Origin: Phycisphaerales bacterium | GTDB taxonomy: Bacteria > Planctomycetota > Phycisphaerae > Phycisphaerales > SM1A02 | Assembly: GCA_022446795.1 (NCBI GenBank) | Contig: JAKVBX010000022.1 | Span: 1 to 59,270 of the forward strand | Length of the DNA: 59,270 nt | Reading direction: 5' to 3' | In this document: piece after piece, positions 29,730 through 45,250 of the stretch | Numbering within the stretch: position 1 is the stretch's first letter | Layout of the letters: each line of letters starts with the position of its first letter | Program-made: the position numbers and the translations under genes | Notes under the pieces: generated by a model | What the model was told of the DNA's origin: nothing | Seen by the model: only the letters and a program-made list of their open reading frames with translations | Database searches by the model: none

Positions 29730-31694
29730 CTACTTCCTGGCGTCATCGACGGCTTCGACCACCTGTTCGACGGTGTAGAAGTCACCTTCGAACACGATGT
29801 CACCATCGGGCTTGAACACCAGCAGCAGTGGAATGCGCAGCCCGCCGACGGCGGCGAGCATGTCGTTGCCCGCTTCGTTGTTTCCGGTCAGGTCGACCTT
29901 CATCGGGACGACCCCGGGTTCCTTGAGCAGCTTGACCACCGTGTCCGAGGCGAGGACGGATTGTTCCAGCGCCTTGCAGTTCAGGCACCACTCGGCGGTG
30001 AACTCCATGACCACGATGTTGCCTTCATCCTTGGTCTGCGTGAATCGCTCCGGCGTGTAGTACACCCAGTCGATCGGTCCCTTCTGGGTCAGCGTGATGC
30101 CGCCCAGGATCGCCGCGGCCAGGAGCAGCATGCCGATGCCTCCGAAGATCACGCGGTTGCCAGTTCGCTTCGTGATCTGCATCGTCCGGATGATCAACCA
30201 GCCCGAGGCCAGCATGATCACGGCGGCGACGATCCACAGGTAGAACCGGCTGGGCGGCTCCGGTGGCGTGACCAGCATGCCGCTGATACCGACACCGATG
30301 AAGTAGGCCGCGGCGGCGAGCATCAACAGGCCCATGACCTGCTTGATCAACTCGCTGGCCGGTCCAGCCTTGGGCATCTTGTTGGTCAGCTTCGGGAAGA
30401 TGCTGAGGAAGAGGTATGGCAGTGCCATGCCGATGCCGACGGCGGCAAATGTCACCAGGGCCGTGAGCACCGGCTCACCAGCCGCCCAGGCCATGGCAGC
30501 ACCCATGAACGGCGCCGTGCACGGCGTCGACAGAATGGCCGTCATGATGCCGAACAGGAAAGAGCCCCAGATCGTGTCGTGACTGGGGTTGAACATGTAG
30601 AGCTTGCCGGGCAGTTGCAGGGTGAACATCCCGCACATGCCGATGGCGAGGATGGCGATCAACACGCCGACGCTGATCGTGAACGCGGGGTATTGGAACA
30701 GCTGGTTCGTCGCTGTGAACTCGGTGAACACCTTGATGGCGACACCCAGGCCCAGCCAGAAGGCCACGATGCCGATGGCCATCGCGACCCCCAGGACAAT
30801 CGTCCGTCCCCGGTTCTTGGATCCACCGCTGAGCGACATGATCTTCAGGGGAATGACGGGCAGCACGCAGGGCGTGAAGTTCAGCAGAAGGCCGCCGATG
30901 GCCGCCACGATCAGGAAGACGATCATGCCCCAGGTGCTGGCGGTGTCGAGCGAGAACTCCAGTCCGAACGTGTCGAAGTCGACGAACTCGGCATCGGCAT
31001 TCAGTTCGCTGAAGACCGCCGGGTTGAAGCCGCCGAAGATCGTGCTGTCGGGCCGGGCCGTTGGATTGGCCTGCATGGCTTCCAGCGAGACGATCTCGAC
31101 CGTGACCGGGATCCCGTACTCGTCCCAGTCGCTGCCCATGTCGGGCAGGGGGGTGGGCGCGAGGCAGGACGTGTCATCGCAGACCTGGAAGACCGGCTTG
31201 ATGGTCAGCGTGGCGGATCCCAGCGGCGCATCCATGGGAATCGTGACCGGGACGTAGGCGATCGCCTTCCCTTCGAACACCGAGTAGGGCACCGGGTCGC
31301 CGGTGAAGGTGACCTTGATCTCGTGGGTCTCGGGCCACTGGATGTACCGGGGGTGCGCCTGGAGGGGACTGTCGGCGGGTTCGAAGAACAGCTCCGTCTT
31401 GTAATAGTCCGACGGGTCGCCCAGCTCGGGTGGAACTACCGGGTCATTGGTATGGATATGCCAGCCGGCGTCGTGGTCGAAGATCACGGCGATGACCAGG
31501 TCCTCGCCAGGCACGGCCCGCTCGGAATCCGGGATGGCCTGGACGCGGACGCGATCCCGCGAGTCATAGAACTGGGGCGTGCTGTCGGGTGCGGCCTGGC
31601 CGGGAAGGCCAAGACCGGGGAACCCCCCGGAGTCACCGGTTGGTCCCGCCAGGGCGATCGGGGCGAACAGGGTCAGGAGCAGCGTGGCGATCAT
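29730..31694 (-). CDS. dsbD: DsbD-type thiol:disulfide interchange protein
   Basis: The 654-residue inner membrane protein carries electrons from cytoplasmic thioredoxin to periplasmic proteins. All three DsbD parts are seen: a signal peptide (MIATLLLTLFAPIALAG) with the periplasmic alpha domain holding the Cys pair VCDDTSCLAP; an eight-helix CcdA-like core with NFTPCVLPVIPLKI and STPCTAPFMGA; and a thioredoxin-like gamma domain with TAEWCLNCK. The start at 31694 gives a clean signal peptide; the frame is open further upstream without support. The usual DsbD is near 560 residues, so the periplasmic domain here is enlarged. The 188-base gap to fliM is divergent and I see no clear element in it beyond a TACACC hexamer toward fliM. 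Confidence 0.92.
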   Translation of the reverse strand: MIATLLLTLFAPIALAGPTGDSGGFPGLGLPGQAAPDSTPQFYDSRDRVRVQAIPDSERAVPGEDLVIAVIFDHDAGWHIHTNDPVVPPELGDPSDYYKTELFFEPADSPLQAHPRYIQWPETHEIKVTFTGDPVPYSVFEGKAIAYVPVTIPMDAPLGSATLTIKPVFQVCDDTSCLAPTPLPDMGSDWDEYGIPVTVEIVSLEAMQANPTARPDSTIFGGFNPAVFSELNADAEFVDFDTFGLEFSLDTASTWGMIVFLIVAAIGGLLLNFTPCVLPVIPLKIMSLSGGSKNRGRTIVLGVAMAIGIVAFWLGLGVAIKVFTEFTATNQLFQYPAFTISVGVLIAILAIGMCGMFTLQLPGKLYMFNPSHDTIWGSFLFGIMTAILSTPCTAPFMGAAMAWAAGEPVLTALVTFAAVGIGMALPYLFLSIFPKLTNKMPKAGPASELIKQVMGLLMLAAAAYFIGVGISGMLVTPPEPPSRFYLWIVAAVIMLASGWLIIRTMQITKRTGNRVIFGGIGMLLLAAAILGGITLTQKGPIDWVYYTPERFTQTKDEGNIVVMEFTAEWCLNCKALEQSVLASDTVVKLLKEPGVVPMKVDLTGNNEAGNDMLAAVGGLRIPLLLVFKPDGDIVFEGDFYTVEQVVEAVDDARK

Positions 31695-31882
31695 GGTTCT
31701 TCTGGATCCTCTGTTTCCGGGGCCGGGGCCCGTGGTCGAGGGCGAAGGAGAGGCTCGCGAGAAGACTTGGTTCGCGTGGAACTCAAGCAGGGTTCCCGTG
31801 CCTTCCGATAAGTCAGAAGCATACACCCGCCCCGGCGTCGGCGGCCGCATTTCCCGGGGCGTGGTGGCAGCGAGATCGAACC

Positions 31883-32905
31883 GTGTCCAACTCCCTCCAT
31901 CGCCATGAACGTCCAAGCCCGGAATCGGAGGGAATCTGCACCCTGCACCCGTCATCTGACGAGGGCGTGCTCTATGCCCTGGGGGGGCGGACCGCCGCCC
32001 GGCCAGCGATCCGGCCCTATGACTTCAAGCGGCCGGAGCGGATGAGCCAGGACCAGTTGCGGTCCTTGAAATCACTCCATGAGAGCTTCGCCCGCAACTA
32101 CGGCGGCCAACTCACTGGCATGAGCCGGATGATCGTGGATATCGAGATCGAGGCGGCTGAGCAGATTTCCTACGCCGAGTACATCGGTGGGCTGGGGAAT
32201 CCGACGTGCTTCGCGACTGTCCGGGCGCCCGAGTTGGGTGGCCGGTTGGTCCTGGAGATGTCCCGAGAGGTCTATTACCCGCTCATTGAACGACTGCTGG
32301 GTGGTGATGTCCACGGTTCCATCATTCCAAGCCGTGCCCTGACCACCATCGAGGCCCGCCTGGCCCGATCCGTGTTGCATCGAGCGATGCAGCCGCTCCA
32401 CGAGGCCTGGTCCGGACTGAGAGCGGTCAACTTCGCCATCGACACCGTCGAAGCCAATCCACAGATCGCCCAGATCGTCTCGCCCAACGAGGTCGTCCTG
32501 GCCATGCGATTCCGGGTGGGGCTGTCTGGTGGCGGAGGGACCATGAGCCTCTGCCTGCCCTATACCCTTGTGGAGACACTGGTTGACGACCTGGGATCCC
32601 GATCCTGGACGACGACCGGCGACGCGGGGCAACCCGGTCACCAGGTGCCTGCTGTCCGGGAGCGGTTGACCGAGGCCGCGGTGAAAGTCTCTGCGGTCCT
32701 GGCATCCACGACGATCACGCTCTCCGAACTCCGCTCGATGCAGCCAGGTGATGTGGTGGTCACAGGCGTGCCAACCACGGCTCCTGCGACCATTTGCGTC
32801 GAGGGTCGGGCCAAGTTCCATGCCACGCAGGGGCAGCACGGCGGCCGCCGGGCGGTCCAGGTCCTCGGTCCCATGATGGGATCAGGCATCGATCAGCCGG
32901 GCTGA
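31883..32905 (+). CDS. fliM: Flagellar motor switch protein FliM
   Basis: FliM forms the C-ring that sets flagellar rotation direction and binds phosphorylated CheY. The start of the middle domain AIRPYDFKRPERMSQDQLRSLKSLHESFARN is unmistakable, followed by IEIEAAEQISYAEYI and a C-terminal SpoA domain (LSELRSMQPGDVVV). No ATG precedes the homology. The GTG at 31883 gives 340 residues, close to the usual 334; a CTG at 31943 preceded by GGAGGGA, or a GTG at 31967, are alternatives. The N-terminal CheY-binding LSQDEIDALL is present only as a poor match (SSDEGVLYAL). No other flagellar gene is in the window. The start is the uncertain part. Confidence 0.85.
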   Translation: MSNSLHRHERPSPESEGICTLHPSSDEGVLYALGGRTAARPAIRPYDFKRPERMSQDQLRSLKSLHESFARNYGGQLTGMSRMIVDIEIEAAEQISYAEYIGGLGNPTCFATVRAPELGGRLVLEMSREVYYPLIERLLGGDVHGSIIPSRALTTIEARLARSVLHRAMQPLHEAWSGLRAVNFAIDTVEANPQIAQIVSPNEVVLAMRFRVGLSGGGGTMSLCLPYTLVETLVDDLGSRSWTTTGDAGQPGHQVPAVRERLTEAAVKVSAVLASTTITLSELRSMQPGDVVVTGVPTTAPATICVEGRAKFHATQGQHGGRRAVQVLGPMMGSGIDQPG

Positions 32906-33102: not shown

Positions 33103-33236
33103 TCTGGCCCAAGGCGGTTGTGTTGATTCGATGGGCGTTGGTGTCCATCGGGTCGAGAGTGCAGATGGTCCGCGCCTTGCCCGTCTTCGAGGTGGCATCG
33201 TGGTCTGAGTGAGCGTCCATGTTGACGTTCGCTCGG

Positions 33237-33346
33237 ACGGCACAAGCCGCCGGGCAACCGTGGGCCACGGGCTGGCTGCCGGAAACGGCACGATGCCCGT
33301 GGCTTGTCTCTTTTCGGGAACCGTGGAAACACACCACCACGGTTCC
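33237..33346 (+). promoter_or_regulatory. Structured RNA leader of nusA (three consecutive hairpins)
   Basis: The first element is a small stem CGGC-ACAA-GCCG (33238-33249). The second is GCCACGGGC (33264-33272) pairing with GCCCGTGGC (33295-33303), enclosing an internal loop and an inner stem GCCG-GAAA-CGGC (33278-33289) capped by a GNRA tetraloop, with a T77/A90 pair extending it. The third is GGAACCGTGG (33317-33326) pairing perfectly with CCACGGTTCC (33337-33346) around a ten-base loop. The last stem ends 37 bases before the nusA ATG. This stretch replaces the usual rimP. It may be an attenuator or a feedback site for NusA. The remainder of 33103-33236 shows nothing I can name. Confidence 0.5.
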
Positions 33347-33383
33347 ACACCTGGTACTGATCCTTGGGGAATGGGCAACGAAC

Positions 33384-34820
33384 ATGAATGCCGAGACCAT
33401 CCGAATCATCGACACCATTGCTCGTGATCGGAATATCGAGCGAGAGCTGCTGATCAATGACCTGGAACAGGCCATGATCAGTGCAGCCCGCAAGCACTTC
33501 AACTCTCTTGATGCCGAGGAGTTTCGCTGTCGCATCGATCCGCTCAGCGGTGAGATGCATCTCTGGCGAGCGGATGAAGAAGGCAACTTCAACGAGATTC
33601 CGATTGCCAGCCTCGGTCGCATCCCGGCCCAGACGGCCAAGCAGGTCATGATCCAGCGCTTCCGCGAGGACGAGCGAGCGAGCATTCTCGACGAGTTCTC
33701 CAAGCGGGTCGGCGAGGTCCTGACCGGAACCGCCCATCGCTACGAGGGCGGCGCCCTCGTGGTGCAGGTCGAGCGGACCGAGGGCTTCATGCCGCGGTCT
33801 GAGCAGATCCAGGGCGAGCAGTTTCACCCGGGTGATCGGGTCCGATGCCTGATCAAGGAAGTCCGCGAGGACGGCAGCCGAGTCAAGATCGTGCTGTCTC
33901 GCAGCCATCCCGATTTCATCCGCCGGCTCTTCGAGGCCGAGGTTCCGGAAGTTGCTGAGCACATCATCGAGATCAAGGCGATGGCCCGCGAGGCGGGCTT
34001 CCGCACCAAGATCGCCGTGTCCTCCATTGATTCGAAGGTGGATGCGGTCGGTGCCTGCGTCGGCGTTCGCGGCAGTCGTATCCGAAACATCGTCGACGAG
34101 CTCGGCGGAGAGAAGATCGACATCGTTCGCTGGAACGAATCGAGCCAGGTCCTGATCGCCAATGCCCTGAAGCCGGCCGAGGTGGAGGAAGTCAGTCTCT
34201 GCTTCGAACTGGGACGGGCCACCATCATCGTTCGCGAAGATCAGCTGTCACTGGCCATCGGTCGCCGCGGGCAGAATGTCCGGCTGGCGGCTCGACTGAC
34301 GGGTTGGGACATCGACATCCTGACGCCGGCCGAGTTCGCCAAGAGCCTCGAGACGCTCGAGTCGACCATCCGACCCATCGAGGGTGTCGAGGACGGCATG
34401 CTGGATCGCATGGGTGCGTTGGGCATGATCAGCGTGTTCGATGTCGAGGAAGTCGGCGTCGAAGTGCTCCAGGGCGACGTTGGAATGTCCGAAGAGATCT
34501 CAGCCCGGGTGGCCGAGGTCTGTGCGGAACGGGCCCGCGAGGTTGCCGAGCAGCAGCAGCGTGAGAAGGAAGAGGAAGAGAAGCGCCGGTCCGAGGAAAT
34601 GGCTGCGGCCGATTCCCTGCTGGCGGGCCCGGAGACGGATGCGCCAGCCGAGGCGGCTGCGGATGCGATTCTCGGTGGTGGCCCGGTCGAGACCGGTTCG
34701 AATGACGAGGAAGCCGACGATGGGGCCGGTGCCCCGGGTTCCGAAGTGACTGCCGATGTCGCCAGCGAGGCGACGGAAGGCAGCGAGCAGCACGAGGAGG
34801 ACCCTTCCGCCGCGTCGTGA
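33384..34820 (+). CDS. nusA: Transcription termination/antitermination factor NusA
   Basis: The 478-residue protein binds RNA polymerase and nascent RNA, affecting pausing, termination and antitermination. Order of parts: N-terminal polymerase-binding domain (to about 125), S1 domain (TGTAHRYEGGALVVQVERTEG), KH1 with GVRGSRIRNIVDELGGEKIDI, and KH2 with AIGRRGQNVRLAARLTGWDI. A helical region and a long acidic Glu/Ala/Asp tail (about 400-478) follow, without the paired acidic repeats of E. coli. The ATG at 33384 matches the normal N-terminus (MNAETIRIIDTIARD); the open frame extends upstream through the hairpins. It heads the operon, with infB 68 bases after. Confidence 0.95.
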   Translation: MNAETIRIIDTIARDRNIERELLINDLEQAMISAARKHFNSLDAEEFRCRIDPLSGEMHLWRADEEGNFNEIPIASLGRIPAQTAKQVMIQRFREDERASILDEFSKRVGEVLTGTAHRYEGGALVVQVERTEGFMPRSEQIQGEQFHPGDRVRCLIKEVREDGSRVKIVLSRSHPDFIRRLFEAEVPEVAEHIIEIKAMAREAGFRTKIAVSSIDSKVDAVGACVGVRGSRIRNIVDELGGEKIDIVRWNESSQVLIANALKPAEVEEVSLCFELGRATIIVREDQLSLAIGRRGQNVRLAARLTGWDIDILTPAEFAKSLETLESTIRPIEGVEDGMLDRMGALGMISVFDVEEVGVEVLQGDVGMSEEISARVAEVCAERAREVAEQQQREKEEEEKRRSEEMAAADSLLAGPETDAPAEAAADAILGGGPVETGSNDEEADDGAGAPGSEVTADVASEATEGSEQHEEDPSAAS

Positions 34821-34888: not shown

Positions 34889-37615
34889 GTGGCGAAGAAG
34901 GCCAACACAGTCAGGGTCCACCAGATTGCCAAGGAACTTGGCGTCACGTCCAAGGACGTCATCGCCAAGTGCGCCGACGAGGGCATTGCTCAGGTGACGA
35001 ACCACATGTCGACACTGTCGGCGGGTCTCGCGGCCACCATTCGCGAGTGGTTCGATTCAGGTACCGCCACCAGCGCGGCGGTGCAGACGGCGGCACCAGT
35101 GGATGTCGACAAGGCTCGGGCACGCGCCAAGCGTCGAACGCCCAAGAAGAAGCCGATCGAGACGGCCGAGGTCGCCGTCGTCGATACCGCACCGCCAACG
35201 CCTGAGGTCCCTGTGCCACCCCCGATTGAGCGACCGCCCGCGGTAGCGGCCGAGGTGACTCCCGTTGCTGATATTCCGCCGACGCCCGAGATCGACGGTG
35301 GTGACCAGGCCGAAGAGGCGGGTACCGCCGAACCTCCGCAACCGGAATCGACGACCGCTGTTCCCAATGCACCAGAGCGACCGAAGGTCATCAAACCCTT
35401 GGGCCGCAAGTTGGAGCGCCCCGTCAAAACGACCCTGTCCGGTCCCAAGGTGATCCGCGTCGAGCAACCCGACCCGGTCCGGCAACCACGACCGGCATCG
35501 CGTCCGTCAGGTGGCCGTGGACCAGGTGGCCCCGGTGGACCGGGCGTACCCATGCCTGGTGGTGGACCGATGGGTGCTCCAGGCGAGGGTGATGATCGTC
35601 GTCCTTCGCGTCGGAACAAGCGCCGAAGTTCCTCTCGCCCCGAGGGGCGTTCGGGACGTGGCACATCGACGCCGTCACAGGGACAGGGCCGGCAGGGCAA
35701 CTGGAGACAGCAGGATCTCCTGGAGCGGGAGCGTCGCTTGTCGCGATCCGGCGGCTTCTTCAAGGCGGCTCGTCGCGATGTCCAGAAGCGAACCGATGGA
35801 TCCGGTGGGCACCGGGCGAAGACCGCGGCCGAGACCGGCGGCAATGTCGTCGTCACGGAGCCGATCACCATCAAGGAACTGAGTTCCGTCAGCGGCGTCA
35901 AGGCCAACCAGATCGTCAAGAAGCTGTTCCTGGCCGGCCAGACCGTCACGATCAACAGCGTGCTCGATGCCGACTCGGCGGTCGAGACCATGCTGGAGTT
36001 CGGGATCGAACTGGAAGTCATCGAGCAGAAGACGGCCGAGGAACAGATTGCCGAGGAATTCGCCTCGCGTGACATGGTTGACGAACAGCCACGTTCACCG
36101 GTGGTGACGATTCTCGGTCACGTCGACCACGGCAAGACCTCGCTGCTGGACAAGATCCGCAATGCCAACGTCGCCGAGGGCGAGGCTGGTGGTATCACGC
36201 AGGCGACCAGTGCCTTCCAGGTTCCGGTCGAGCTGAGCGATGAGAGCCGGCTGGTCACCTTCATCGATACGCCGGGCCACGAAGCCTTCACGGCCATGCG
36301 GGCCCGTGGTGCCAAGTCGACTGACATTGTCGTCCTGGTCGTTGCGGCGGACGACGGCGTGATGCCGCAGACGATCGAGTCGATCAACCATGCCAAGGCG
36401 GCCGAGGTCCCGATCGTCGTGGCCCTCAACAAGATCGACAAGGCGGAAGCAACGGATTCGAACATCCAGCGCATTCTTGGCCAGTTGGCCGAGCATGAGT
36501 TGAACCCCGTCGAGTGGGGTGGTGAGACCGAGGTGGTCCGTACCAGCGCAACCGGTGGCGAGGGTGTACAGGATCTCCTGGAGGTTCTTGACCTGCAGGC
36601 CCAGTTGCTGGAACTGACGGCGGACTTCGGCGGTCGTGCCGAGGGCGTGGTCCTGGAAGCACAGATGCAGGAAGGCCGAGGTGCCGTGGCCAGCGTGCTC
36701 CTTCAGCAGGGCCAGCTCAAGAAGACCGACTTCATCGTGCTGGGCCGAGCCTACGGTCGCGTCCGCGACATGGTCGACGATCATGCTCGCCGGATCGACG
36801 TGGCCTATCCGTCGATGCCCCTGGCGGTCTCGGGCATGAACGAGGTGCCGGATGCCGGTGACAAGTTCTATGTCGTGAAGTCCATCCGCGAGGCGGAAGC
36901 CGCTTCCAAGGAACGCATCGAGGCCGACCGCAACAGGTCCCTGGCCCGCGAGAAGGTGACGCTCGACAACATCTTCGAGAAGCTCGAGGGCGCGGATCAG
37001 AAGGAACTGCCGATCATCATCAAGGGCGATGTCCACGGCTCGGTCGAGACGCTGGACGCCACGCTCCGGAAGTTGTCCACGGATGACATCGCGGTCTCGG
37101 TCAAGCACTCCGCGGTTGGCGGCATCAACGAATCGGACGTGGCGTTGGCGGAGGCCTCCGGCGCAATCATCGTTGGCTTCAATGTGACCACGTCGGCTGG
37201 AGCGCGTCGTGCGGCGGAGAAGGCCGGCGTTGACATCCGGCTCTACGAAGTGATCTACGACATCAGTGACGACCTCAAGAAGGCCATGGTCGGCCTGCTT
37301 GATGCCGAGCATCGCATCGAGGTCATCGGTCATGCCGAGGTCCGCGAGGCCTTCAAGATCTCCAAGGTCGGCATGGTCGCCGGCTGCTATGTCACTGATG
37401 GCTCGATCGAGCGGAACGCGTTGATCCGCGTGACACGTGATGACATCGTGATCGAGTCGGATCGCAAGCTCTCGCAGCTCAAGCGATTCAAGGACGATGC
37501 GAAGGAAGTCAAGAGTGGCCAGGAGTGCGGCATGCTCATCGATGGCTATGACGACATCAAGGTCGGGGACGTGCTGGAGTGCTACACGTCCCAGGAGGTG
37601 GCACCGACGCTGTGA
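34889..37615 (+). CDS. infB: Translation initiation factor IF-2
   Basis: The 908-residue GTPase brings initiator tRNA to the 30S subunit and promotes subunit joining. An N-terminal IF2_N-like domain (VRVHQIAKELGVTSKDVIAKC) and a long Pro/Gly/Arg linker (about 75-300) precede a second IF2_N segment (TIKELSSVSGVKANQIV). The G domain has G1 GHVDHGKT (410-417), G3 DTPGHEAF (460-467, catalytic H464), G4 NKID (514-517) and G5 TSA. Switch I is atypical: T437-Q-A-T-S-A where nearly all IF-2s have TQHIGA. Start is GTG with CAGGAG upstream. The C-terminal domains II-IV are complete. Confidence 0.97.
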   Translation: MAKKANTVRVHQIAKELGVTSKDVIAKCADEGIAQVTNHMSTLSAGLAATIREWFDSGTATSAAVQTAAPVDVDKARARAKRRTPKKKPIETAEVAVVDTAPPTPEVPVPPPIERPPAVAAEVTPVADIPPTPEIDGGDQAEEAGTAEPPQPESTTAVPNAPERPKVIKPLGRKLERPVKTTLSGPKVIRVEQPDPVRQPRPASRPSGGRGPGGPGGPGVPMPGGGPMGAPGEGDDRRPSRRNKRRSSSRPEGRSGRGTSTPSQGQGRQGNWRQQDLLERERRLSRSGGFFKAARRDVQKRTDGSGGHRAKTAAETGGNVVVTEPITIKELSSVSGVKANQIVKKLFLAGQTVTINSVLDADSAVETMLEFGIELEVIEQKTAEEQIAEEFASRDMVDEQPRSPVVTILGHVDHGKTSLLDKIRNANVAEGEAGGITQATSAFQVPVELSDESRLVTFIDTPGHEAFTAMRARGAKSTDIVVLVVAADDGVMPQTIESINHAKAAEVPIVVALNKIDKAEATDSNIQRILGQLAEHELNPVEWGGETEVVRTSATGGEGVQDLLEVLDLQAQLLELTADFGGRAEGVVLEAQMQEGRGAVASVLLQQGQLKKTDFIVLGRAYGRVRDMVDDHARRIDVAYPSMPLAVSGMNEVPDAGDKFYVVKSIREAEAASKERIEADRNRSLAREKVTLDNIFEKLEGADQKELPIIIKGDVHGSVETLDATLRKLSTDDIAVSVKHSAVGGINESDVALAEASGAIIVGFNVTTSAGARRAAEKAGVDIRLYEVIYDISDDLKKAMVGLLDAEHRIEVIGHAEVREAFKISKVGMVAGCYVTDGSIERNALIRVTRDDIVIESDRKLSQLKRFKDDAKEVKSGQECGMLIDGYDDIKVGDVLECYTSQEVAPTL

Positions 37616-37639: not shown

Positions 37640-38059
37640 ATGGGTCATCATCGGGCTCAGATCGAATCGGTATTGAAGCGCAGCGTCCAGGACGTCCTGT
37701 CGCGCGGTCTGGCCGATCCACGGATCCAGGGATTCGTGACGGTCACGCGGGTCGAGGTGAGCCCGGACGAGCGGCAGGGCACGGTCTGGTGCTCCGTGAT
37801 GCCGGCGGAACGGGCCCCCCTGGTACGACAAGGATTGAAGGCGGCGTCGGGACGGATACACCGTGAGCTGAAGGACAAGTTGGAGATGCGACGCGTTCCC
37901 CGGCTCCAGTTCCGGATTGACGAGTCGCTGAAGCGGGAAGCCGATGTCTTGGCGGCGATCAGCGAAGCCAAGCGGCAGGACGAGAAGTTGAGGCGATACC
38001 GGGAAGGCCAGGAGGTCGAGCCGGGAGACGCCGAGCCAACCGAGGACGAGGAATCGTGA
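37640..38059 (+). CDS. rbfA: Ribosome-binding factor A
   Basis: RbfA binds the 30S subunit during late 16S rRNA maturation. The 139-residue product shows the KH-like fold: RAQIESVLKRSVQDVLSRGLADPRI, then VTVTRVEVSPDERQGTVWCSV and LQFRIDESLKREADVLAAI. It has an acidic tail as usual. It is 24 bases after infB and its stop overlaps the next gene in a GTGA, so the nusA-infB-rbfA unit clearly continues into the HhH-GPD-like gene. Confidence 0.93.
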   Translation: MGHHRAQIESVLKRSVQDVLSRGLADPRIQGFVTVTRVEVSPDERQGTVWCSVMPAERAPLVRQGLKAASGRIHRELKDKLEMRRVPRLQFRIDESLKREADVLAAISEAKRQDEKLRRYREGQEVEPGDAEPTEDEES

Positions 38060-39120
38060 AGAACTCTGCGAAACACGCCACGAAGTTCAAGTCGGTACTG
38101 AAACGCCTGAAGTCGTCCGAGCCGGTTCTTCCGGCCCAGGGCGATCCGGTCACCATGCTGGCCTTTGCCTTCTGCGCGTGGGAATCAACGACGACCAAGG
38201 CGCTGGAGAGCTGCCAGAAGCTCCGCAAGGCGCTGGTCGACTGGAACGAGTTGCGGGTCTGCAAGCCGTCCGAGATCGCCGAGATGGCGGGGTTCAATGA
38301 TCCGCTCCGGCTGGAGCGGGCCGAGCGGTTGCGTACCTCGCTGCACTCGGTCTACCTGCGGGAACACGAGACATCGCTCGAATCGCTGCGGGAGATGAAG
38401 AAGCGGGAGACCCGGGACTACATCGAGTCCCTGGGGGGCATGGTGCCGTATGTCTCCTCCTTCGTGCTGTTGCACTGTTTCGACATTCACAGCATTCCCG
38501 TTGATGATCAGCTGCGTCGCCTGCTGGTCGAGAAGGATGCGATCGAGGGTGATGCCGACGTCGATGAGGTCGCCTCCTGGGTAACCCGGCAGGTGGGTTC
38601 GGACGCGGGCTCGGATGCATCGGCTCGTCTCCAGCATTGGGTGGATGCCGAGTCTGCCCGGTTGGCCAAGGACCTGACGGCGGCGAATCGCCAGGAGGCC
38701 CAGGTCCGTAAACGCCAGTTGACCAAGATGGAAGCGGAGCGGAAGAAGGCCCTGCAGGAAGCAGCGGCTGAGGCCAAGCGACTCGCGGCGAAGAAGGCTG
38801 CCAAGAAGGCCCCTGCCAAGAAGGCGCCTGCGAAGAAGGCGCCCGTCAAGAAGGCTGCAGCCAAGAAGGCGCCGGTGAAGAAGAAGGCACCCGCCAAGAA
38901 GGCCGCTGCCAAGAAGGCCCCGGCCAAGAAGAAGACAACCAAGAAGGCCGCGACGAAGAAGGCAACAGCCAAGAAGAAGGCGCCCGCGAAGAAGGCTGCG
39001 GCCAAGAAGAAGGTCACCAAGAAGGCCGTGAAGAAGAAGGCGCCAGCCAAGAAGAAGGCCGCCAAGAAGACCACGTCCAAGAAGGCGCCGGCACGAAAGA
39101 AGAAGGGTCGGGGCAGTTGA
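38056..39120 (+). CDS. HhH-GPD-like protein with histone H1-like lysine/alanine tail
   Basis: The 354-residue protein joins two parts. Residues about 30-190 align without gaps to the endonuclease III core: [15 protein letters not shown] is the hairpin-helix and [11 protein letters not shown] holds the aspartate (D150) at the exact distance of 18 residues from where EndoIII has its catalytic lysine. That lysine is Y132 here, as in monofunctional T/G-mismatch glycosylases of the MIG type, and the second hairpin glycine is lost. The iron-sulfur cysteines are absent. Residues about 240-354 are [14 protein letters not shown] repeats as in histone H1 and Hc1 tails, expected to bind DNA. Start is GTG overlapping rbfA. 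Glycosylase, structural DNA-binding or nucleoid roles are all possible. Fold assignment is by my reading and not verified. Confidence 0.65.
38780..39110 (+). repeat. Low-complexity Lys/Ala coding repeat
   Basis: AAGAAG-rich DNA encodes repeated [11 protein letters not shown] and KKKAPAKK units of irregular length. It is a protein tail and not a satellite or CRISPR: no constant-length spacer or repeat exists. Such tracts vary in length between strains. Confidence 0.85.
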
Positions 39121-40646
39121 TGCGGATCTGTTGGCTGTTCCTCGCCTGTTTCATCCTTTTGCCGGCAGTTGGCACGGCTGACACGCTTTCCGATGCTCTC
39201 GAGAAGGTCCAGGCGGATCACGACCTTCAACTGCATGAATCGACGGTGGTGGCGGACCGGGACTGGACGAGCCAGTCCTCCCGCGACAGCCTGCGGCAGT
39301 ACATCCGGGCTCGCCAGGCGCTGGGTCGTGACGAGACCGTGGCGGCCTATGGACTGCTGGCGGATGCCATCAGTTTCGATCCGGACAACGCGGCGGCCTG
39401 GCGACAGCTGGCCTTCCTGCGGGAACGCGAAAACCAGTTTGAACAGGCCCGGAAGGCCTGGGAAAAGGTTCACCAGGTCGACCCTGGTGATCCTGACGCG
39501 TTGTACGCGCTGGGGATGTCAGCGGCGCAGCGGGGGCAGATCGAGGAGACCGTTCGCCTGCTTCTGCCATGGGAACTGAGTGATCGACGCAATCGATTTG
39601 ATCGGATGCAGCCCTTCCGCGGCGTGCATGTCGCGACCCGGTTGGCCGCGGCGCTCGATCGGATGGGGGAAACGGAAGCGGCAACGCTGCTGAGGGATTC
39701 AGCCCGTTCGGATATCGACGCCTTGGTCCAGGGTGCGGCGGGGTACCAGATCGACCTGGGGTCCTGGCTTCGGTTCGTGGAGATCCTGCAGCGGGAGCGG
39801 TCCTACGAGACCGCCTTTGACGTGTTGGCTCTCCTGATTCCCACGTCAGTCGTGCAGGAGCGACAGCGAATCGACATGTTGGTCCTGGCGATCGGCATGG
39901 CCATCGCCTTCGATGATGGGCAGCACACCTCCGCGTTGATTCATGATCTGCACCGACGAGAGATGCTGAACGTGGAGGGTGCCGTCAACGGCCAGGCGAA
40001 TCTCGCGATGTCGCTGGACGAGGCAGCCGCGATCTTCAGTCGATTCGGGAACATAAACGCGGCCGCATGGCTGTACCAGGACGTGATCGAGGTTGATCCA
40101 GCTGCGGTCATGGCACGCAACAACGTGGCGTATTTCATGCTCGAGGACGGCCGGATTGATCCGGCCACTGAGCGTCTGCTGGAGTCGGCCTGGCGTGCCG
40201 CACCGGAGGACGCCTCGGTGCTCGACAGCTATGGCTGGATGCAGTATCTCAAGGGGCGTTTCGAAGATGACGATCGTGGTCCGGGTGCGGTTCAGCTCCT
40301 GGACCAGGCGAATCGCCTGGCGGGTGATGTTCCCAGCGTGGAGATCCTGGATCATCTCGGTGATGCGAGGTACCGAATGGGGGATTCAGCCGGAGCCGTC
40401 GAGGCCTGGACACAGGCCCTCGCCATACTGGACAACACGCAGGTTCGAATGGATCAGATCCGGCAACTGGAAACGACCCAGCAGACCCTGTGGGGGTGGT
40501 GGGGGCAGCGGATCGTGAATCCACGTGATGTGTATGATCTTCAGTTCGGTCCGCTGGAAGAACGCCTTCGGGCGAAGCTTGAAGCGATCGCGTCCGGTGA
40601 GTCCCCCGCGGTTCGCCGGACTTTCGAGGAACAGGCGGGCGATTGA
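39120..40646 (+). CDS. Secreted or periplasmic TPR-repeat protein
   Basis: The 508-residue protein starts at ATG 39120, whose A is shared with the previous stop codon, and has a signal peptide ([20 protein letters not shown]). TPR motifs are clear: AAYGLLADAISFDPDNAAAWRQLAFL, then QARKAWEKVHQVDPGDPDALYALG, AAWLYQDVIEVDPAAVMARNNVAYF and SAGAVEAWTQALAIL. It is probably a scaffold for protein complexes in the periplasm. No enzyme motif is seen. It is co-transcribed with the HhH-GPD-like gene and followed 33 bases later by yebC. Confidence 0.8.
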   Translation: MRICWLFLACFILLPAVGTADTLSDALEKVQADHDLQLHESTVVADRDWTSQSSRDSLRQYIRARQALGRDETVAAYGLLADAISFDPDNAAAWRQLAFLRERENQFEQARKAWEKVHQVDPGDPDALYALGMSAAQRGQIEETVRLLLPWELSDRRNRFDRMQPFRGVHVATRLAAALDRMGETEAATLLRDSARSDIDALVQGAAGYQIDLGSWLRFVEILQRERSYETAFDVLALLIPTSVVQERQRIDMLVLAIGMAIAFDDGQHTSALIHDLHRREMLNVEGAVNGQANLAMSLDEAAAIFSRFGNINAAAWLYQDVIEVDPAAVMARNNVAYFMLEDGRIDPATERLLESAWRAAPEDASVLDSYGWMQYLKGRFEDDDRGPGAVQLLDQANRLAGDVPSVEILDHLGDARYRMGDSAGAVEAWTQALAILDNTQVRMDQIRQLETTQQTLWGWWGQRIVNPRDVYDLQFGPLEERLRAKLEAIASGESPAVRRTFEEQAGD

Positions 40647-40679: not shown

Positions 40680-41432
40680 ATGGCAGGTCATAGCAAGTGG
40701 GCAAACATCAAGCACCGGAAGGCCCGGCAGGATGCCGTCAAGGGCAAGGCCTGGTCCAAGTGCAGCCGCGCGATCATGGTGGCGGTCAAGAATGGCGGAC
40801 CGGATTCTGATACCAACCTGACGCTGCGATATGCCATCGAGGACGCCAAGAGCGTCAACATGCCCAAGGACACGATCCAGAAGGCCATCGCGAAGGCCAG
40901 TGGAGAGGGCTCCGACGGCGCACAGTTCCAGGAAATTCGCTACGAGGGCTACGGCGCCAATGGTGTCGCGATCATCGTGGACTGCCTGACCGACAACGTG
41001 CAGCGGACCGGCCCCGATCTCCGGCATGCCTTCGAGAAGCACGGCGGCAATCTCGCCAAGCCCGGTGCGGTCGCGTTCAGCTTCCAGACCAAGGGCATCG
41101 TGCTGGTCGAGTCCAGTGCCGCGACCGAGGACCAGTTGATGGAACTGGCGCTCGAGAGTGGGGCCGAGGACGTCACCGGCAGCGAGGGTGGCTGGGAGAT
41201 CACGACGACTCCGACGGATTTCGTTCCGGTGCTCAAGGCACTTGAGGACGCGGGGGTTCCGACGGTGTCCGCGGAGATCACCATGATCCCGGACCTGCAG
41301 GTCACCTGCGACGCGGACACCGCTCGCAAGGTCATGACCATGGTGGACGCCTTCGAAGATCACGATGATGTCCAGAAGGTCTATACCAACGCCGAGATCT
41401 CGGATGAGATCATGGCCTCCCTGGACGGCTGA
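40680..41432 (+). CDS. yebC: YebC/PmpR family protein
   Basis: The 250-residue protein has the invariant start MAGHSKWANIKHRKARQDA and the family segments NMPKDTIQKAIAKASGEG, RYEGYGANGVAIIVDCLTDN and KHGGNLAKPGAVAF. Family members were first called transcriptional regulators. More recent work links them to relieving ribosome stalling, which fits a translation-operon neighbourhood. A GGAG is upstream of the ATG. Confidence 0.95.
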   Translation: MAGHSKWANIKHRKARQDAVKGKAWSKCSRAIMVAVKNGGPDSDTNLTLRYAIEDAKSVNMPKDTIQKAIAKASGEGSDGAQFQEIRYEGYGANGVAIIVDCLTDNVQRTGPDLRHAFEKHGGNLAKPGAVAFSFQTKGIVLVESSAATEDQLMELALESGAEDVTGSEGGWEITTTPTDFVPVLKALEDAGVPTVSAEITMIPDLQVTCDADTARKVMTMVDAFEDHDDVQKVYTNAEISDEIMASLDG

Positions 41433-42268: not shown

Positions 42269-44620
42269 TCAAATGACACCGGGCAGCAGTGGGTCTTCAG
42301 CGGTGTCTCGCAGATCCTGCAACTGTGGTAGCCCATCGATTCGTGTTGATGGGACTGGGCCGGCGGGCGAGCCATTTCCGGCGGATGACTGAATGCGATT
42401 GTGATCACTCGTGGGCCTGGCCGGATCAGTCGACTGCTCTCCTGGCGGTCTTGACTGGGTCAGCAACATCTCGCGGACCTTCTCCATGTTTGTCCGTGAT
42501 CCCTCGGTAGCCGGGTGGTCCGGGCCAAGAGCAGGATGTGCTTGACGACCGGTGTATGCCCGAGTGAAGTACGCCAGGGCTTCCTCGAGTCGCTGCTGCT
42601 TGAACCGGAGATGTCCCATCATGTTCAGTGATGTAAAGGACTCCGGGTCCTGTGGTCCCTTGATTTCCAGGCAAAGTTCCAGGCCGCGTTCCAGGAGTGG
42701 AGCAGCTTCGTCATATTCCATGAGGTCGAAGTGGAGCACGCCGAGGTTGTGGTACGCGGACTGCGTTTCCTCGTGCCGGTCGCCGAGATGCGTCTGCATT
42801 CCAGTGAGGACATCACGCAGCCATGGCTTGGCCTCGTCCCGCCGACCCTGGTTCACGAGGCAGGCACCCAGATCGTTCATGACAACGAGCGTCTTTTCGT
42901 CGTGGTCACCAAAGTGCGTTTTCGCATTCACAAGAGCTGTCTGGAGGATCGGCTCAGCCTTGCTCCAGTGGTCGCCTACAAAGTACGCATGGTGGAACTG
43001 CGCCGTCCAGAACACCTTGTGAACCAGGTGCTTCAGCTCGGGGTCTTCATCGAGAATCTCGGCATTACTTTCCGTGACCTGTGTCCAGAAGTTGTTGATG
43101 ATCTCGCTGGACAGCGCCGAATCCAGCGGCATGAAGTCATTTGCATGCTCGTAGACAGTCTTGCTCATCGAGGCAACGGCTGTCGCCAGGAGTGTCTCCA
43201 CACGCTTGGTCCTGCCGCGATCTTCCTGCTTCTTGGCTTCCAACTCAAGCCTGGAATTCTCAGCCTTGACTAGTGCGACGGTGGCGTTGTGATTGGATCT
43301 TTCGGCTTGTTCCAGGGCCAGTTCCGCTTGGGCATAAGCGATATCGGCGCGGGCTGCGAAGACGCTTGTCAGCACGACTCCGGTCAGGACCAGCAGCACG
43401 AAGCAGGCGGCGATCGTTGCCTGAGCCCGGTTGCGGGAGATCAACTTCCGGAACCGGTAAGTCCGGCTGCATGGCGCTGCTTCCAGGGCATCGCGGTTGA
43501 GATATCGTCGAATGTCATCAGCAATTGACTCCGGGGTGGAGTAGCGGCACTGCCGACGTCGACTCACCGCCTTGAGCGGGATCCAGTCGAGTTCGCGTTC
43601 CAGCAGTCGCTTCAGGCGCCTGGGGTCCAGTCGTCGCGTGCGTGCGATCTCAGCCTGGGTCGCCTCATCCAGTTGACTGAAGCGTTCGCTGGCCGATGGC
43701 GGGTCGATCTCTCGCAGCATTCGACCGGCTTCGGTTTGTCCCACGCGGTTGAGTTCACGGCGATCGAATGGTGTGCAGCCAGCGACCAGTTCGTACAGGA
43801 TGACGCCCAGGGCGTAGACGTCGGTTCGGGTATCGATGTCCTGTTCCCACCCGTTGAACTGCTCCGGGCTCATGTAGGGATCGGTTCCACCCCGGACACC
43901 GTCCCGCTGCCCGGAGGCGGCGCCCGCGAGGACCTTGGAGATCCCGAAGTCGATGATCTTGGGTTGAGGTTGGTCCCGGATGTCGGTCATCACCAGGATG
44001 TTTCCGGGCGTCAGGTCGCGGTGGACCACCAGTTTCTCGTGGGCGTATTGGACGGCTTCGCAGATCTTGATGAACAACGCCAACCGGCTCGGGATATCCA
44101 GTTCGTGCCGGTCGCAGTATGCCGTCAACGTGTTGCCATCGACATGGTCCATCGCGAACCAGAGCTGGCCGGTGGCGGTCGTGCCGGCATCTCGCACGCT
44201 GGCGATCCCGGGATGCTCCATCATGGCGAGCGTCTGTCGCTCGGACCGGAATCGATCGATGAAGGTCTGCGTGTCGATGCCGGGCTTCATGAGCTTGAGC
44301 GCGACATGGCACTTGAGCGAGGTGTGCTCGGCCAGGTAGACCACGCCCATGCCGCCGCTGCCGATGCGCCGGATGATCCGGTACTGGTCGATCATCTCGC
44401 CGCTGTCGAACCCGATGGGGGAGCCGGTGGGATTGGATGAACTGGCCTGGGTCTGCTCGGCATCGACTTCGCTGTCGGCGGCGTCGTGCGCCAGCAGTGA
44501 TTCCACGTCGGCACGGAGTTGATGATCGTCACCACAGTTTTCGTCGAGAAAGGCAGCTTGTCGATCGCCGCTGAGGTCACGGGCGTTCAGGAAGAGGTCC
44601 TTGGTTCGATTGCTGTTCAT
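42269..44620 (-). CDS. Serine/threonine protein kinase with transmembrane segment and TPR sensor
   Basis: The 783-residue kinase has a conserved 60-residue pre-kinase module (LDENCGDDHQLRADVESLL), a Hanks kinase domain (about 80-350), a transmembrane helix (about 400-422), a coiled region and kinesin light chain-type TPRs (about 560-700). Active-site residues: glycine loop IGSGGMGVV, K109, E127, catalytic D202, DFG 224-226. The catalytic loop reads HRDLTPGN with T204 where Ser/Thr kinases have lysine. The gene starts 36 bases after an ECF-like sigma gene on the same strand, the arrangement also seen at 55.7 kb. It probably phosphorylates that sigma factor or its regulators; this is inference. 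AAGGGAAG precedes the start. Confidence 0.88.
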   Translation of the reverse strand: MNSNRTKDLFLNARDLSGDRQAAFLDENCGDDHQLRADVESLLAHDAADSEVDAEQTQASSSNPTGSPIGFDSGEMIDQYRIIRRIGSGGMGVVYLAEHTSLKCHVALKLMKPGIDTQTFIDRFRSERQTLAMMEHPGIASVRDAGTTATGQLWFAMDHVDGNTLTAYCDRHELDIPSRLALFIKICEAVQYAHEKLVVHRDLTPGNILVMTDIRDQPQPKIIDFGISKVLAGAASGQRDGVRGGTDPYMSPEQFNGWEQDIDTRTDVYALGVILYELVAGCTPFDRRELNRVGQTEAGRMLREIDPPSASERFSQLDEATQAEIARTRRLDPRRLKRLLERELDWIPLKAVSRRRQCRYSTPESIADDIRRYLNRDALEAAPCSRTYRFRKLISRNRAQATIAACFVLLVLTGVVLTSVFAARADIAYAQAELALEQAERSNHNATVALVKAENSRLELEAKKQEDRGRTKRVETLLATAVASMSKTVYEHANDFMPLDSALSSEIINNFWTQVTESNAEILDEDPELKHLVHKVFWTAQFHHAYFVGDHWSKAEPILQTALVNAKTHFGDHDEKTLVVMNDLGACLVNQGRRDEAKPWLRDVLTGMQTHLGDRHEETQSAYHNLGVLHFDLMEYDEAAPLLERGLELCLEIKGPQDPESFTSLNMMGHLRFKQQRLEEALAYFTRAYTGRQAHPALGPDHPATEGSRTNMEKVREMLLTQSRPPGEQSTDPARPTSDHNRIQSSAGNGSPAGPVPSTRIDGLPQLQDLRDTAEDPLLPGVI

Positions 44621-44656: not shown

Positions 44657-45250
44657 TCAGGGGGTGCGTTCATCGGGACCGCACTCGCGCCGAAGCCAGG
44701 CGGACGCAAAGTGCCAGTTGTCCCGGGCCGTTGTTTCCCCCATGTCCAGGTCAGCTGCGATCTGCCGGTAGGTGTGACCGAAGGCCCAGCGTCGCCAGAA
44801 GATCTCGAAGGCCACGGGATCGGATTCGTTCAGGCGATCCAGTGCCGAGCGGATGTGCTCCGTGTCGTTCGGCAGTTTGGTAAGCCGCTGCAGTCCGTTG
44901 GCGCCCATGGGCAGCGTGTCGATCTCGGGATACTCCCGCTCCAGGCCGCCGCCTCGCTTGATCGCTTGGCGCTTGCGGGCGTGGTCTACGAGGATTTGTC
45001 GCATGACCCGGTACGCACAGCCGTAGAAGTGCTTTCGGTCATTCCACCGGGGATTCTGTCTCGCGGCGGTGGCCACCCGTGCGTAGAGATCGCTCACCAC
45101 GATCGACGGCTGAAGGTCCGGCTGCTGGCTGTCATGGCTCAGCAGGGTGGCCGCCATGTTGCGAAGTTCGCTGTAGACCGACTCCCACAACGCATTTACG
45201 GCGTCGGGGTCATTGAGCAGCTTCGTGATGTTCCCACAGGCGGTGGACAT
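44657..45250 (-). CDS. ECF-like RNA polymerase sigma factor (Sig-70_X6 type)
   Basis: The 197-residue factor has the region 2 helix HFYGCAYRVMRQILVDHARKRQ followed by KRGGG, and a region 4 helix-turn-helix (YRQIAADLDMGETTARDNWHFASAWLRRE). This is the sigma-70_X6 pattern common in planctomycetes, in which anti-sigma factors are often replaced by protein kinases. No anti-sigma factor gene follows; a kinase gene does. It is the same length as the second sigma factor at 55693-56286. The start codon is preceded by a TAGAAC hexamer nine bases upstream, so a leaderless start is possible. Confidence 0.9.
   Translation of the reverse strand: MSTACGNITKLLNDPDAVNALWESVYSELRNMAATLLSHDSQQPDLQPSIVVSDLYARVATAARQNPRWNDRKHFYGCAYRVMRQILVDHARKRQAIKRGGGLEREYPEIDTLPMGANGLQRLTKLPNDTEHIRSALDRLNESDPVAFEIFWRRWAFGHTYRQIAADLDMGETTARDNWHFASAWLRRECGPDERTP

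Follow-up and report, generated by a model that had tools for sequence, protein, structure and literature searches.

An endonuclease III-derived domain with a lysine-rich tail, often encoded behind rbfA in Planctomycetota

The gene, its operon and its distribution

The window, the whole stretch of 59,270 nucleotides that we analysed (positions 1-59,270, forward strand, of contig JAKVBX010000022.1 in the Phycisphaerales bacterium assembly GCA_022446795.1), carries in this order nusA, infB, rbfA, a gene for an HhH-GPD-derived domain with a lysine-rich tail, a TPR protein gene, yebC and a gene assigned to acylphosphatase by an NCBIfam match below cut-off (Table 1). The stop codon of rbfA and the start of the HhH-GPD gene overlap by 4 nt (gtga) and, by their coordinates, the stop of the HhH-GPD gene overlaps the listed start of the TPR ORF by another 4 nt. 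The start of nusA probably lies at MNAETIRI within the listed ORF 33219-34820. In the E. coli nusA-infB-rbfA operon, truB occupies the slot that is taken by the HhH-GPD gene in the window. A spurious ORF or a frameshift artefact was considered and rejected, since the frame, the domain and the start overlap recur across many genomes. Elsewhere in the window, inspection by eye suggested a FliM-like protein (31589-32905), a DsbD-like thiol reductase (29730-31955), a protein kinase with a TPR-like C-terminus (42269-44620) and an ECF-sigma-like gene (44657-45250).

Table 1. Coordinates of the genes and protein features at the locus (window positions)
Feature	Position	Strand	Evidence or remark
nusA	33384..34820	+	TIGR01953 E 5.5e-104, above cut-off
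infB (IF-2)	34889..37615	+	TIGR00487 E 9.4e-209, above cut-off
rbfA	37640..38059	+	TIGR00082 E 5.2e-18, above cut-off
Complete gene, HhH-GPD-derived domain plus lysine-rich tail	38056..39120	+	GTG start, 354 aa
HhH-GPD (endonuclease III-type) domain, residues 1-200, without FeS loop	38056..38655	+	AlphaFold2, Foldseek, VIA-align
Motif D62-W-N64-E-L-R67-V68, most conserved stretch of the family	38239..38259	+	88-row alignment
Helix-hairpin-helix-aligned segment; model helices 116-124 and 131-142 (protein numbering)	38401..38481	+	AlphaFold2 and profile alignment
Tyr132 codon, aligned to the EndoIII AP-lyase Lys	38449..38451	+	profile alignments
Asp150 codon, aligned to the catalytic Asp	38503..38505	+	profile alignments
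Linker, residues 201-239; predicted continuation of the last helix of the domain (181-248, model numbering)	38656..38772	+	
Lysine/alanine-rich tail, residues 240-354; pLDDT <50 from about residue 252	38773..39117	+	
TPR-repeat protein	39117..40646	+	family matches all below cut-off
yebC	40680..41432	+	NF001030 E 1.2e-99, above cut-off

The gene is a member of a widespread Planctomycetota family. Profile searches detected the domain in 60 of 61 genomes spanning genus to order, the window's own included, and the one genome without a match in this search (G001) is of the same genus. Across the phylum, 230 of 294 genomes contain the domain (own genome included, weakest matches counted as scored) and 64 gave no match. 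The profile of 17 relatives that represents the window family (A1) passes over ordinary Nth and MutY proteins in the seven genomes compared (G000, G037, G040, G041, G042, G044 and G045): each yields a single match to A1, ten candidates at most being scored, but two or three to PF00730.

The operon with rbfA that had been described for the window recurs throughout the 80 named loci, in 79 of which rbfA precedes the gene on the same strand by no more than 272 nt; the remaining locus (L097) has only 111 bases of upstream sequence. Upstream we also found infB in 75 and nusA in 55 loci, and downstream yebC in 50 and a TPR gene in 41, tallies that depend on flank length (67 of the 80 loci have more than 2.6 kb of downstream sequence). 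The start codon is embedded as NTGA, the form of the 4-nt overlap, in 64 of the 80. A record titled Leptolyngbya sp. PLA1 (L134) bears a Phycisphaerales-type locus, and its organism name looks wrong.

A search for the same gene and neighbourhood in other Planctomycetota had been suggested by the initial annotation, and outside the named loci it gave a divided picture. Among 60 further phylum loci, a non-random set made up of L041-L060 (20 of 30 search loci) and 40 loci chosen manually, most of them from high in the list, rbfA is upstream in 29 and yebC is downstream on the same strand in 26. Fifteen of these 26 are without rbfA, and in 14 of the 15 yebC lies within 226 nt; a yebC match of unplaced position at L189 was left uncounted. 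Overall, 44 of the 60 loci have rbfA upstream, yebC downstream or both, and neither rbfA nor downstream yebC was found in 16, within flanks of 1.5-2 kb upstream and 0.03-1.9 kb downstream. Twelve of the 60 (L041-L052) come from the window's class and one (L042) from its family; the ten best loci (L031-L040), which are the window and same-order loci, were omitted from these counts.

Fold and kinship with endonuclease III

The initial annotation had assigned an HhH-GPD fold to the product of 38056-39120 and had staked that assignment beforehand on the predicted structure. An AlphaFold2 model built from a 62-sequence alignment (A3, the window and 61 related loci) reached a mean pLDDT of 97.2 and a pTM of 0.92 over residues 2-204. 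Foldseek against the PDB returned 66 matches at E<=1e-3, led by D. radiodurans EndoIII-3, and the best 50 of the 66 are all HhH-GPD glycosylases. VIA-align placed two endonuclease III-DNA complexes at the top (1orp and 1orn; Z 17.1, 191 residues, rmsd 3.4 and 3.3), and all 50 matches listed are glycosylases of the HhH-GPD fold, including MutY, 1kea and the clusterless MutYX structure 8uuc (Z 14.6). The window domain is accordingly predicted to have the all-helical, two-lobed HhH-GPD glycosylase fold. A BFVD fold search stayed without a match at E<=1e-3, with DNA glycosylases again in its three top rows. In a full-length prediction from 11 sequences (pLDDT 75.9) the domain is kept and its last helix is extended as given in Table 1, and residues 251-343, 346-348 and 350-353 fall below a pLDDT of 50. 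Pfam PF00730 gave no match at E<=1 for the window protein or the 17 A1 members, which reflects sequence divergence, since fold and profile comparisons do detect the domain; in the window's own genome the same search at E<=1 found two other genes only, and genes of the MutY and Nth types are present there separately.

At the level of the single window sequence the resemblance to endonuclease III is slight, being marginal in a PDB search (E 0.026) and well below the cut-off of 400 bits for the NCBIfam DR2438 monofunctional glycosylase model NF053634 (E 5e-5, 22.9 bits). All 17 A1 members match this model at E<=1, with a best value of 1.3e-10, and all of their NCBIfam matches are below cut-off. 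The A1 profile matches D. radiodurans EndoIII-1 (DrEndoIII-1) at E 1.7e-9. Aligned directly by hhalign, the window family gave a negative result with Planctomycetota Nth (probability 1.2%, E 0.044) and a weak one with MutY (probability 4.2%, E 0.0099). A further set of 14 phylum members (A8), which we would guess to be of the Planctomycetia type, has E-values of 8e-32 with the window family and 2.4e-9 with DrEndoIII-1. The connection runs through 15 of the 16 FeS-bearing members from the phylum search (A7), all outside the window's class. By hhalign they pair with A3 at a probability of 99.9% (E 4e-34); they also match DrEndoIII-1 (E 1.9e-33, covering positions 5-221 of a 232-position profile) and Planctomycetota Nth (E 8e-15). 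These living intermediates tie the window protein to endonuclease III, so that the kinship is clear despite the negative comparison with Nth. With the family profile, the fold and the FeS-bearing relatives taken together, the resemblance to endonuclease III is far beyond chance, and the intermediates suggest that the FeS cluster was lost rather than gained.

Active site, conserved motif and tail

Consistent with the gapless alignment to endonuclease III proposed earlier, HMMER profile alignments to DrEndoIII-1 place Y132 at the position of the AP-lyase Lys and D150 at that of the catalytic Asp. The Lys column of A3 contains Tyr in 36, Phe in 25 and Ser in one of the 62 rows, and the Asp150 column contains Asp in 61 and a gap in the remaining row. 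Since the A3 loci were gathered with a narrower alignment (A2) and two patterns spanning the D62-N64-R67 stretch and the PVD site, conservation of both in A3 is biased upward, at Asp150 too. A broader alignment of 88 rows (the 60 phylum loci, the window and 27 of the 80 named loci) has no Lys in the Lys column, with five rows carrying K one column earlier, and keeps the catalytic Asp in 64 rows: in 6 of 16 FeS loci, in 30 of 44 other phylum loci, and in the window and its 27 named relatives. Asp is also present in 13 of the 14 A8 rows. Its loss extends to loci of the window's own class (L041, L043-L046, L048 and L052), where gene and locus are kept. A quick tree, drawn from its midpoint and with 41 of 85 inner branches open, gives rough minimum counts of 10 changes for Asp and 10 for FeS, the direction of which is presumed. 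Loss of the Asp is suggestive and is no proof of a pseudoenzyme, because an HhH-GPD enzyme from a crenarchaeon is reported to be active although Ser replaces the Asp (PMC11754123).

The FeS cysteines are missing from the window protein, as had been noted from its translation, in which the [4Fe-4S] motif C-x6-C-x2-C-x5-C was not found. This motif is present in 16 of the 60 other phylum loci, all outside the window's class, and two of the FeS members (L190 and L191) are located behind rbfA. By eye, a HisG-like ORF directly follows the FeS-bearing members L058, L059, L190 and L191.

The most conserved stretch of the family lies away from these sites. N64 and R67 are present in 88 of 88 rows, D62 in 86 and V68 in 85, among rows that were found by profiles and patterns in which this motif weighs, so that members without it could be missed. 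By entropy, Asp150 ranks 19th and the hairpin Gly128 69th of 206 columns. Of the hairpin glycines, the first (G128) survives in 48 of 88 rows, and the window protein has lost the second, reading GMV in place of GVG. The D and R of the motif are common to plant ROS1, and the conservation of D-x-N-x-x-R may in part be a structural feature of the ROS1 branch.

The polycationic tail of 115 residues was likewise borne out, with 50 K, 37 A, 9 P and a net charge of +53. Across the 80 named loci the segment after residue 200 ranges from 0 to 183 residues (a few cut by contig ends) and has a positive net charge in 77; 61 loci have at least 20 residues after residue 200 with at least 20% K+R, and by hand count lysine makes up less than 10% of the segment in 16. 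The term fusion is therefore misleading: the joining is no rare or one-off event, and in this widespread family the domain is constant and tail length varies. The tail end of one locus (L110) is rich in Glu, Arg and Ser and resembles the lysine repeat in another frame, which would point to a natural or an assembly frameshift within the repeat. The domain carries an average net charge of -1.4 in the 80 named-locus members (over residues 1-200) and of -2.6 in A8 (n=14), compared with +4.1 for Nth (n=10), +10.2 for MutY (n=6) and +5.9 for the FeS members (n=15), in sets that differ in sequence length; this hints at a shift of basic charge from the domain to the tail.

The initial annotation had read the tail as histone H1-like and suggestive of chromatin. 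The window tail scores 29.1 bits against Pfam HC2 (cut-off 40) and 43.9 bits against the NCBIfam H1-like model NF038053 (cut-off 80). A 21-base pattern coding for K-K-A-x-A-K-K was located at three places of the window's own genome, 17 times in all: ten times in the HhH-GPD gene, six in a DksA/YteA-like protein and once in trigger factor. The DksA/YteA-like protein (G000:C1 171099-171305, L230; match below cut-off) has a long N-terminal lysine/alanine-rich extension, and the trigger factor (G000:C11 ~46696, L231; TIGR00115 E 1.8e-45, below cut-off, start outside the stretch) a C-terminal lysine-rich tail. Because the same type of tail is found on these two proteins, it is no marker of chromatin as such, and the chromatin reading is weakened by this as well as by the common neighbours nusA, infB, rbfA and yebC.

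Proposed function and comparison with known systems

The reading we favour, with a confidence somewhat short of even, is that of a nucleic-acid-binding factor which derives from a repair enzyme, can fill its role across the phylum without base excision and most likely acts on rRNA or ribosomal particles, or at the interface of transcription and translation. The Planctomycetota family would trace back to a [4Fe-4S]-bearing endonuclease III in the DrEndoIII-1/ROS1 branch, and in the window lineage the FeS loop and the AP-lyase Lys would have gone and a disordered polycationic tail be present. Loss of catalysis would be the shared state of the family, and its common function would be independent of base excision. 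The fold would serve for docking or recognition, with the D-x-N-x-x-R motif as its most important part, while the tail would provide electrostatic binding to nucleic acid, probably to ribosomal RNA or nascent ribosomal particles, or at the site where transcription meets translation. We lean towards the ribosome and RNA because the gene follows rbfA in some lineages and precedes yebC in others; YebC is reported to contact 23S rRNA (PMC12234827). Operon position is weak evidence, however, and RNA instead of DNA is the presumed target only; the basic domain of the FeS members, as expected of a DNA-binding enzyme, counts against it. The narrower proposal, that within Planctomycetota an endonuclease III-type enzyme became a non-catalytic ribosome- or RNA-associated factor, encoded next to yebC or expressed as part of the nusA-infB-rbfA operon, in which D-x-N-x-x-R is an invariant site and a lysine tail replaces the FeS DNA-binding loop, is possible but doubtful.

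It is rather unlikely, in our estimation, that the window's clade and the A8-type members are active monofunctional glycosylases, similar to MutY or MIG, in which the tail replaces the FeS loop for DNA binding and whose activity was lost in other lineages. Catalysis may persist in these two groups, as judged from Asp in 61 of 62 A3 and 13 of 14 A8 rows, yet the residue was repeatedly lost elsewhere, the window's class included, and gene and locus persist there. Similarly, Tyr stands at the Lys site in 14 of 14 collected Planctomycetota MutY, where the MutY profile also aligns weakly, but 25 A3 rows have Phe in its place. The matches of all 17 A1 members to the DR2438 model and the presence of clusterless MutYX among the structural matches fit a glycosylase, whereas the strongest constraint lies outside the active site and the genome already has its separate MutY- and Nth-type genes.

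About equally unlikely is a nucleoid-associated protein whose HhH-GPD domain attaches to DNA or bends it, with no excision, while its H1-like tail compacts the DNA and so contributes to the condensed planctomycete nucleoid. The fold is typical of DNA-binding proteins, but the domain is slightly acidic on average, unlike Nth and MutY, and the hairpin is altered, with the second Gly gone in the window and G128 in little more than half of the rows. Resemblance of the tail to HC2 and H1-like models, below cut-off in both cases, has to be set against the same tails on trigger factor and the DksA-like protein, the 16 named loci with little lysine, and neighbours that are mostly transcription and translation genes. 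Part of a report on Gemmata describes bead-like particles of unresolved identity on its DNA and treats the question of its nucleoid protein as unresolved (PMC3440768), which makes this explanation worth a direct test.

A literature search of partial coverage, with most subscription papers outside it, found no paper title pointing to the window family. The gene is found phylum-wide, stands in the nusA-infB-rbfA operon, and went unrecognised by the Pfam HhH-GPD model in all 17 members that were scanned. With FeS cysteines and the catalytic Asp present in some of its extant members and absent from others, the family lends itself to direct tests of how a repair enzyme may be converted into something else, and it is a concrete candidate for a planctomycete ribosome factor or nucleoid protein.

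Among known systems, chlamydial Hc2 and the bacterial H1-like proteins have a lysine/alanine composition like that of the window tail, with matches below the curated cut-offs, and are nearly all tail. A signature protein of the PVC superphylum is reportedly conserved, small, basic and nucleic-acid-binding and without an endonuclease III domain. MutY and MIG have the fold and the Asp in common with the window protein, and Tyr occupies the Lys position in MIG as it does in the 14 Planctomycetota MutY; in contrast to them, the window protein has no FeS cysteines, an altered hairpin and an added lysine tail. Plant ROS1 and DME are large eukaryotic 5-methylcytosine demethylases with an FeS cluster. 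VDWKAIR of ROS1 aligns with VDxNxLR of the family and the PVD site is common to both, but ROS1 keeps the hairpin Lys, and neither ROS1 nor DrEndoIII-1 has Asn at the position of Asn64. The best sequence relative by profile is DrEndoIII-1 (DR2438; 4unf, 8a5c, 8a5f), which shares the fold, the aligned Asp and the hairpin with the family. According to an excerpt of the work on this enzyme, it has the Lys and a [4Fe-4S] cluster, shows reduced EndoIII activity and ends near residue 259 (PMC9268735). The window family differs from it in having Tyr or Phe for the Lys, no FeS cysteines, Asn64 and a long tail, which DrEndoIII-1 is without, whereas the FeS-bearing planctomycete members match DrEndoIII-1 over nearly its full length.
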